From contig JAQSDT010000326.1 in the NCBI GenBank assembly GCA_029946075.1, positions 1 through 34,564 of the forward strand: a stretch of 34,564 nt of DNA, read 5' to 3'. Under the pieces are notes generated by a model that was not told the DNA's origin, searched no databases, and was given only the letters and a program-made list of their open reading frames with translations. The stretch comes from a bacterium (GTDB lineage Bacteria; Pseudomonadota; Alphaproteobacteria; Rhizobiales; Xanthobacteraceae). Position numbers and translations under genes: made by a program. How positions within the stretch are numbered: position 1 is the first letter of the stretch; every line of letters begins with the position of its first letter. Shown one piece after another: positions 13,942-25,909 of the stretch.

Positions 13942-16218
13942 CTAAACGCGGTTGTTGCCGAGCGGCGCTTCGCTGCCCGGCTGGACTTCAGACGGGCCTT
14001 TCGCCGCGTTGTTTTTGCCCTCGCCGCCCTGCGCGGCCGGGTCGTTAACGGCGCCCGCGGCGCTCGGCTGCGCCGTCTGGTTCATCGACGCAATCGACGG
14101 GATGCCTTCCGCCACCGCGTCGGTAAGGTCCATCTTGTCGTCTAGCCGGCGCAGCGTTTCCCGGGCCAGCCAAAGCGGCTTGATCGAGCCCATCTGAATC
14201 AAGAGCGGCAGCATTTCCTTCCAGTTCTTGATCTCGAACGCCTGGTTGGGCTTGCCCATCGAACCGGCTTCGATTTCGAGGAAGACTTCGCCCGCGATGT
14301 CCGCAAGCGACAAATGCGGCCACACCGCGCCGGGGCCGGCTTGCGCCTTGACCGTCTCTTCCGACATTTCGCGAAGCAGGATCTGGCCGGCTGCGCGAGC
14401 GACGATCGTCATGAACCCGTCCAGATCGTCAATGCTTGAGCCGTCGGCTGTGTTCGTGGTGCCGGCCGAAATGGCGACTTCGGTCGCGCTCGAATTGGAC
14501 GTGCCGCCGAGCTGCGCTTCCTGCGCGCCGACGACGATCTGCGCATCCGCGAACGTCTCGTTGGTATCGTAAAGGTTCGGATCGACCCCGGGCACCGGCA
14601 TCGACTGAAACACGTCGGCCATCTTCGTTGCCGGATCGACATTCAAGCCGATGACGTCGAACGGCTTCATCTTTTTGAGCCGTTCCTGGTCTTCTTCCTC
14701 GATCGCGCCGTTCGGGAACACCCAACGCGGGCGCGCAGCTTCGCGGTGCTCGCGCTTGCCCTGGCGCGACCTGTTGTGCTCGTTTTGCATGTCGCGCAAC
14801 AGATAGACGTCTGACGGCGGATAAAGATCGTCTTCGTTCTCGACCTCGTTGAAGGTCAGCGCGTAGACGGGCCAGAAGTCCTCGACGAACACGTCCGGCG
14901 GCGCCGGTTCGCGCAGCCATTTGTGATAGCCTTCGGCGACGTAATAGACGAGCCCGCTCGGCTTGTCGTAGTGCTTCCACACACGAACAAGGCCCTCGCC
15001 GGGCTTGACGCTGCTGTGCTGACCGTCCTCGTCGAATGTCTCGCCAGCGATGTTCGCCGTCTCCTTGCCTTCGGCGTTGAACTTTGCGCAGTCCTTCAGG
15101 TCGACGCCGTCGAACAATTCGCGGACTTCGCCGAGCGTGTACTCGTACTCGACCGTAATGTGCCGCGCGCCGATGAAGCCGACGAGCGTCTTCGTCAGCA
15201 TGTCCGGAATGACTTTGGTCGAGCGCGGCCAATCGAAGATCAGGCCTTCACGAACCAAAATTTCCGGCTCGGCTTCGAGCGAAGCGATCGACGCCTGCAG
15301 TTCCGCCATTTCGGCGTCGGTGCTCTCGATCTCTCCGGACGCGACGTCTTCCGACAGCCGCGCCAGGTGATCGAGCCGAACCTTGGAATCGGCAAGATGG
15401 TCGGACAGCCCCGGGCGCGGGCCGTATTCCCGCTGAAAGCCAAGCTCGACATAGCCGACGCCAGTCGTGCAGGTCCGCCGCACGAGCTGCTTCGCCGCAG
15501 TCTTGAAGTCGACCGGCTTCTGCTCGCGCAAGGCCTTGGCGTACAGGATCTCTAGCGTCTTGCCGATTTTGTCGATCTGCTTCCGACGTTCCATACCCTG
15601 CTGAAAATCGGTCAGCAGTTCGTTCGCGGCGACCGCTTCCGGCGACGGCTGGTAGGGCTGCATGATCGGGTCGTCGAGCGGCGGGCCGCCGTTATGCCCG
15701 AGCAGGCCGGACGTCACGAACGGGTCTTGCGGCACGGAAGCAGCCGCGGCGACAACGGTCTGCTGCGCCTGCATGTGCGCGGCTTCGGCCATCGCATTCT
15801 GCTGCATCGCTTGCATTGCGAGCACGATCGACTGCGGGTCTTCATCCCACACGGCGAAGTCCAGCCGCTCGGCGCGTTTCGCCGTCGCTTTCGGGTTCTT
15901 CGCGTACAGCGTCGCCGTCTTCTGCTTGACGTGCCGGCCGGCGATATTGGCCTTGTAGTTGGTTTCGCTCCACGTCTCTTCGCGGCCGTACATCGCGACG
16001 AACATGTCTCGACGCATCCGCTTGAACGCCTTCGCGTGGAACGCCTTGTCGGCCTTGATCGTCTTGATGATCTTGGTGACGTGCGCCTTCAGCGCCTGGT
16101 CGGCGTCTTCCGTCTCTGGCGTTTCGTCCGGCTTCGGCGACCCGTCCTGTTCCATCGCGGGCAAGTCGGTATCGTCGGGGACGACGTTGGTCAGAGGCGC
16201 TTGTTCATCGAATGCCAT
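13942..16218 (-). CDS. Portal protein
   Basis: 758-aa acidic protein immediately after TerL; MRRDMFVAMYGREETWSETNYKANIAGRHVKQKTATLYAKNPKATAKR. Confidence 0.75.
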   Translation of the reverse strand: MAFDEQAPLTNVVPDDTDLPAMEQDGSPKPDETPETEDADQALKAHVTKIIKTIKADKAFHAKAFKRMRRDMFVAMYGREETWSETNYKANIAGRHVKQKTATLYAKNPKATAKRAERLDFAVWDEDPQSIVLAMQAMQQNAMAEAAHMQAQQTVVAAAASVPQDPFVTSGLLGHNGGPPLDDPIMQPYQPSPEAVAANELLTDFQQGMERRKQIDKIGKTLEILYAKALREQKPVDFKTAAKQLVRRTCTTGVGYVELGFQREYGPRPGLSDHLADSKVRLDHLARLSEDVASGEIESTDAEMAELQASIASLEAEPEILVREGLIFDWPRSTKVIPDMLTKTLVGFIGARHITVEYEYTLGEVRELFDGVDLKDCAKFNAEGKETANIAGETFDEDGQHSSVKPGEGLVRVWKHYDKPSGLVYYVAEGYHKWLREPAPPDVFVEDFWPVYALTFNEVENEDDLYPPSDVYLLRDMQNEHNRSRQGKREHREAARPRWVFPNGAIEEEDQERLKKMKPFDVIGLNVDPATKMADVFQSMPVPGVDPNLYDTNETFADAQIVVGAQEAQLGGTSNSSATEVAISAGTTNTADGSSIDDLDGFMTIVARAAGQILLREMSEETVKAQAGPGAVWPHLSLADIAGEVFLEIEAGSMGKPNQAFEIKNWKEMLPLLIQMGSIKPLWLARETLRRLDDKMDLTDAVAEGIPSIASMNQTAQPSAAGAVNDPAAQGGEGKNNAAKGPSEVQPGSEAPLGNNRV

Positions 16219-24231: not shown

Positions 24232-24519
24232 TCAGTGTATTGCGCTGGTCAAGACATCGCCGTCGGGCGCAATCGGCTCGACGACCACCGCGGCCGGTCC
24301 CCAATCCTCCGGAGCACGATATCGTGCCGGCAAGAACATTACGCCGTTAACGATCGTTGGCTCAAACACGGTGATCTCGTTGGTTACAGCGTTATCGCCG
24401 TAATTCACACGGATGTAATCCACGAGCCACTGCCAGCGCTCGGCCGACAGCAGCACAAACTCGCCGTGCTGCGGCCGATCTTCGCGAACGTGGCACGAGT
24501 AGGGTACGAAATCGGCCAT
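24232..24519 (-). CDS. Hypothetical protein
   Basis: 95-aa ORF 3 nt after the upstream stop; ends before terminator. Confidence 0.6.
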   Translation of the reverse strand: MADFVPYSCHVREDRPQHGEFVLLSAERWQWLVDYIRVNYGDNAVTNEITVFEPTIVNGVMFLPARYRAPEDWGPAAVVVEPIAPDGDVLTSAIH

Positions 24520-24522
24520 CGA

Positions 24523-25056
24523 TCAAGCCGGAAGCCGGTCGCCAGGCAGCGTCACGCGCCCCGGCTTGAAGACGGCCCGGTTGACGGCCATGAAGCCCTG
24601 CTCGATCGCGGTGCGCCCGATCGCGAGCCAGCGCTGATCGACAGCGATCACGCTCGGCTTGTCGTTCGACGCTGCCGGACCCTTCATCGTCGCGAGATCG
24701 TCGAGCACGCGCAGGGTGTTCTCTTCGAGCCGCTTGTTCTGGCTGACGAGATCGACCGTCGCGTCGCTCTGCGGCCGATACCCGGGAACGGGCAGTCCAA
24801 CGTTCTGCGCCGCAGATTCGGCCACGTACCCTTCGAGAAAAGCCTTGCGCGGGCTGATCGAAACGTAGCCGTCGTCGTACTTGATGAAGAAATCCCCGGG
24901 CACCGGCGTATAGCGCGCGATGATCGCGGCAGCGAGGACAAACGACTCGTAGTCTTCGCGGAAAGTGAGCAAAACGCCGCCATCGCCGCGGTGCGTGATG
25001 CTGGCGATCTCGAGCGCCGATACGGTTTTGTGGCTTTTATAGCGCGGCATTTCCAT
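24523..25056 (-). CDS. Two-domain phage protein: MPRYKSHK N-domain + Acb2/Tad1-hairpin-like C-domain (anti-CBASS candidate)
   Basis: Start reassigned to MEMPRYKSHKTVSALEI with AAAGGA RBS; C-terminus VPGYRPQSDATVDLVSQNKRLEENTLRVLDDL...DQRWLAIGRTAIEQGFMAVNRAVFKPGRVTLP matches remembered Acb2-type consensus. Confidence 0.6.
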   Translation of the reverse strand: MEMPRYKSHKTVSALEIASITHRGDGGVLLTFREDYESFVLAAAIIARYTPVPGDFFIKYDDGYVSISPRKAFLEGYVAESAAQNVGLPVPGYRPQSDATVDLVSQNKRLEENTLRVLDDLATMKGPAASNDKPSVIAVDQRWLAIGRTAIEQGFMAVNRAVFKPGRVTLPGDRLPA

Positions 25057-25125
25057 GCGGAAGTCCTTTTGCGGTTGGGGTGCGTGTAACTCGCATATCT
25101 CACGAGTGACATACATCCGTCAAGG

Positions 25126-25423: not shown

Positions 25424-25909
25424 TTACTCGAATACGCTGGGCGCAGCTTGCGCGCTTTGGGGCTGTTCCGCCGGCTCATGCTCGATCGTCTTCAGCTTCG
25501 CCATACGATCGGCAAGCGCGCGTTCAGCTTCACCGAGCAACGCGCGAATCTTGTCAGCCGGCATTTCGGCCAGGTCCTGCTCTGTCAACGATTGCGCGCC
25601 AGCCACGCCAGACAGCTGCACAAGGCTTTTAGCCGCGGCGCCGCGCGTGCTGCCCTTCTGTTTCGTGTCTTCTGCCAGCTCGATCAACACCCGGACTCCT
25701 ACTTCGGCGCCGCGCGTAACGAGCAAATGCCGGGCTTTGCGGCGCACGTCTTCGGCCACGTCTGGCTGGCGCGCCAGGCGCCCGCCGAGCACGCTAGGCG
25801 ATGAATACCCTGCTTTTTCAGCCGAATACGTCGCATCGCCCGTGACGGCCATGTGGCTGGAAAACGCGCGCTGCATCGCCGTCAAGTGGCCCTTCTTTTT
25901 TCCCGGCAT
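25424..25909 (-). CDS. terS: Terminase small subunit
   Basis: AMQRAFSSHMAVTGDATYSAEKAGYSSPSVLGGRLARQPDV resembles small-terminase HTH; first gene of leftward block. Confidence 0.7.
   Translation of the reverse strand: MPGKKKGHLTAMQRAFSSHMAVTGDATYSAEKAGYSSPSVLGGRLARQPDVAEDVRRKARHLLVTRGAEVGVRVLIELAEDTKQKGSTRGAAAKSLVQLSGVAGAQSLTEQDLAEMPADKIRALLGEAERALADRMAKLKTIEHEPAEQPQSAQAAPSVFE

Follow-up and report, generated by a model that had tools for sequence, protein, structure and literature searches.

Results

Locus and gene

The window analysed here, a stretch of 34,564 nucleotides, spans contig 326 of draft genome G000 from end to end, and carries phage genes for a terminase large subunit, a major head protein, an endolysin, a tail fibre, a primase/helicase and a DNA methyltransferase. 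The gene of interest occupies 24523..25056 on the minus strand and encodes a protein of 177 amino acids, in which a Dec-like OB-fold N-domain is followed by an Acb2/Tad1 hairpin. The original prediction had placed an ORF of 178 codons at this position. The ORF is real, its coordinates are right, the sequences quoted from it are exact and the 177 residues fit that codon count; the strand, which had been left unstated, is minus. The open frame as a whole has 197 codons for amino acids (25116..24523, minus strand). The ATG at 25056, with AAAAGGACTTCCGC just upstream, is a likelier start than that of the 197-aa frame and gives the 177-aa protein. The AAAAGGA stretch seven bases before this ATG (25062..25070, minus strand), read directly from the sequence, is a putative ribosome-binding site.

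The upstream neighbour is the gene for the terminase small subunit, terS (25424..25909, minus strand; assigned by weak profile matches). The gene lies ~370 bases downstream of it in transcription order, in keeping with the position after terS that had been proposed. The downstream neighbour is a 95-aa ORF (24232..24519, minus strand), for which a family search returned no match. Elsewhere in the window, ARAGORN reported a tRNA-Pyl at 15516-15609, on the strand opposite a long ORF of 758 aa that probably encodes the portal; this call is probably a false positive.

The C-terminal hairpin

Residues 92-164 (24565..24783, minus strand) match the Pfam family PF24729, Acb2_Tad1_hairpin, with E=9e-17 and 61.5 bits against a curated cut-off of 27 (E=8e-17 and 61.6 bits for the 197-aa frame); an NCBIfam search of the protein gave no match. 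By sequence, a search of the PDB matched the Acb2 of phage PaP2 (p26) at E=1e-5, and a profile built from 21 relatives reached p26 at E=2e-9 and the Acb2 of T4 (Vs.4) at E=1e-4. The resemblance to an Acb2-type hairpin, which had been put forward and was to be given up if no significant Acb2/Tad1 hairpin profile matched, is thus far past chance. In the full-length AlphaFold model (pLDDT 84.6), the two helices of the hairpin span residues 98-123 and 141-163, and Foldseek returned PaP2 Acb2 with a probability of 1.00 and a modest E of ~6e-3. The loop between the helices is ~12 aa longer in the window protein. In phage contigs, close relatives of this hairpin are for the most part stand-alone proteins of ~84 aa.

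Residues that align with the ligand site are retained. Tyr93 (codon 24778..24780, minus strand) aligns with Tyr8 of T4 Acb2, a residue of the cyclic-dinucleotide site, and Phe163 (codon 24568..24570, minus strand) with Phe82, which stacks on the ligand base (PMC12657218). In T4 Acb2, cyclic-dinucleotide binding is disrupted by Y8A, and in the Panoptes assay either Y8A or F82C renders Acb2 inactive (PMC12657218). Among 29 relatives, the tyrosine is present in 28, and Lys108, Arg142 and Phe163 in all 29. The Phe163 position is not universal, since the profile alignment places no phenylalanine there in PaP2 Acb2. In the PaP2 protein, Lys26 and Arg67 are ligand residues.

A second hairpin match in the window's own genome (G000 contig 125, 1000-1089; L002) is sub-threshold, at 25 bits. 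In Rhizobium phage RHph_X2_26 (L146, 2450-3255), a stand-alone hairpin gene comes directly after a phage TIR-domain gene.

The N-terminal OB domain

The N-domain (residues 1-81; 24814..25056, minus strand) has no Pfam model; it matches two uncharacterised PHROG families, phrog_11049 (E=5e-14) and phrog_872. Modelled from 51 sequences with AlphaFold, it is confidently predicted to adopt an OB-fold (pLDDT 92.8, pTM 0.80). The only PDB match of this model at E≤0.001 is the decoration protein Dec of phage L (PDB 6E3C; E=4e-5, TM 0.72, 26% identity over 83 columns). The OB-fold of Dec is built in the order beta0, beta1-3, alpha, beta4-5, alpha2 (PMC6449081), and the same order is present in the N-domain model. 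Sequence comparison by itself gives an ungapped match of 72 residues to Dec that falls short of significance (E ~0.1-0.2), so the homology rests on the fold together with weak sequence agreement. That the N-domain is independent, as first proposed, is borne out by its own PHROG matches, its occurrence alone in other phages and its folding by itself in AlphaFold.

Mobility of the N-domain and its sponge partners

Two scans of viral contigs yielded ~60 N-domain proteins, of which 58 are non-redundant at 80%; 22 of these 58 carry a C-terminal extension of at least 40 aa. In some of these proteins the N-domain stands by itself (~85 aa), and in others it precedes a different domain. Pfam assigned an Acb2/Tad1 hairpin to 8 and Tad2 to 4 of 62 N-domain proteins. 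In the non-redundant set, a sponge domain was found in 10 of the 22 extended proteins (seven Acb2 hairpins, three Tad2), a raw count that is somewhat biased because the scan seeds included fused proteins. The Tad2-like domain that takes the place of the hairpin in L112, L116 and L133 belongs to an unrelated family, PF11195. Further partners are gp49_66, crAss001_48, a MazG-like protein (by fold search) and several uncharacterised domains. Tad2 is also met as a neighbour: L088 has a Tad2 frame overlapping the end of its N-domain gene, and the N-domain gene of L125 is closely preceded by one for Tad2.

Each domain was aligned separately, because the hairpin became blurred when fused and unfused proteins were aligned together. 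In the resulting N-domain tree, which is built on few columns and has many open forks, the hairpin label requires four changes, at least three of them forced by well-supported branches. Furthermore, the hairpin-bearing L095 is sister to the Tad2-bearing L116, and therefore one sponge has apparently been swapped for another. Phages have joined this N-domain repeatedly to signal sponges, the Acb2 hairpin and Tad2.

The fusion of the window itself recurs in L003 and L004 (~60% identity) and in the Caulobacter phages Jess A and RapA (37% identity). In Jess A it is encoded among early replication genes, and in L004 near a terminase-like gene. The architecture is indeed uncommon, as had been supposed: only 7 of the 58 non-redundant N-domain proteins bear the hairpin, close hairpin relatives mostly stand alone, and among 385 genomes of the host's class a full-length match was found in the window's own genome and in none of the 384 others sampled. 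A scan of the genome collection with the N-domain gave four loci only, all distant, and searching with terS for closely related phages gave two distant loci only, neither with the fusion in the stretch examined. The fusion is not described in the literature found, a body of text that lies outside most subscription journals and the primary Acb2 and Tad1 papers.

CD-NTase genes in the host's relatives

CD-NTase genes encode the makers of the CBASS signal. A search of the host genome (81.7% complete) gave no CD-NTase match. In the host's order, 5 of 61 genomes have such genes, one of them from the same genus, and a CBASS target in the host is plausible on that account.

Discussion

Taken together, the protein is probably an Acb2-type anti-CBASS sponge with a Dec-like OB module. 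The hairpin homology, the conserved site residues, the OB fold and the repeated fusion are computed results; the anti-CBASS function is predicted from homology. With the known Acb2 proteins (PaP2 p26, PDB 8H2J; T4 Vs.4, PDB 7UQ2), the window protein has in common the hairpin, the N-terminal GY(R/K) segment and the ligand-site residues. The known proteins, however, are single-domain and ~90 aa long, whereas the window protein adds an OB domain of 80 aa and a longer hairpin loop. Because of the added N-terminal domain, it is a variant of the Acb2 family and not a plain member.

By analogy with Acb2, the C-terminal hairpins would be expected to assemble as a hexamer and to bind the cyclic di- and trinucleotides of the host CBASS without degrading them. 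With its nucleotides bound, the CBASS effector would stay off and infection would proceed. The Dec-like OB-fold is an add-on module whose role is most likely accessory, for example to broaden the set of bound ligands, or to anchor the sponge or gather it into clusters.

A β-sheet N-domain followed by two long helices is also the plan of Tad1 (PMC12043709), and PF24729 covers both families. A Tad1-type Thoeris sponge would hold gcADPR between its N-domain and hairpin, and cyclic trinucleotides in the hairpin core. We regard this assignment as very improbable. The hairpin profile matched the Acb2 of PaP2 and of T4 in the PDB and no Tad1 chain at E≤10, and Tad1 is absent from the 50 best PDB fold matches of the full model and of the N-domain model; Tad1 membership is disfavoured on these results. 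In addition, although Tad1 (C. botulinum prophage, PDB 8SMD) likewise has a β N-domain before a hairpin that belongs to PF24729, the fold of the window N-domain is the Dec-like OB. The Dec likeness raises another alternative, namely that alphaproteobacterial phages have reused the hairpin as a structural or assembly part, docked on the capsid by the N-domain. Dec decorates the capsid and attaches to the shell through its OB domain (PMC6449081). The gene adjoins terS in the window, its counterpart in L004 is near a terminase-like gene, and the head module of RcapMu contains a stand-alone hairpin. The hairpin is, moreover, strongly conserved across alphaproteobacterial phages, which counts against the sponge reading, as do the extra ~12 aa in the hairpin loop and the lack of a CD-NTase match in the host genome (81.7% complete). 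With such conservation, and with head or packaging neighbours in places (RcapMu44, L004 and, beside terS, the window), a different conserved role of the hairpin is conceivable. Nevertheless, a structural part is unlikely: the fusion of Jess A sits among early replication genes, the N-domain genes of LASTA and Bas106 are outside head modules, and the ligand-site residues are kept. Also, the trimeric capsid spike at the C-terminus of Dec is absent from the window protein, which has the sponge hairpin there.

A further alternative concerns the N-domain only and leaves the hairpin free to act as a sponge. The fusion could be a passive mosaic, the N-domain being a promiscuous module that is functionally unconnected with the sequestering of signals. 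The N-domain is often found alone and also precedes gp49_66, crAss001_48, the MazG-like protein and several other domains, and we hold this to be a serious possibility, if not the one we favour. Against it, 10 of the 22 extensions come from two unrelated sponge families, and the sister branches L095 and L116 suggest a swap between sponges.

Retaining the Acb2-type sponge as our reading, we note that the finding adds a multi-domain architecture to the known phage sponges, with a shared N-terminal module, absent from Pfam, that precedes two unrelated sponge families. The role of this module is the more interesting question. Speculatively, and we think this rather doubtful, the Dec-like OB module might itself bind immune signals or organise the sponge. 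The Acb2 and Tad2 fusions would then be bispecific sponges, and the stand-alone N-domain proteins of ~85 aa an unrecognised anti-defence family. If the module does bind signals, a family of small phage genes now lacking annotation would supply anti-defence candidates that can be tested. The link to Dec would also mean that a domain for decorating capsids and one for countering defence have the same fold.

Other N-domain proteins show more elaborate arrangements. In L132 (1053-1436), the beta1-beta2 loop of the N-domain holds a 'KPTIAELQALL...VNPDGSI' mini-module that is also the C-terminal tail of L095. One protein of L133 (1251-2036) combines the N-domain with a Tad2-like and a crAss001_48 domain, and a 584-aa frame in L134 (3814-5565) carries the N-domain and, at its C-terminal end, a weak hairpin.
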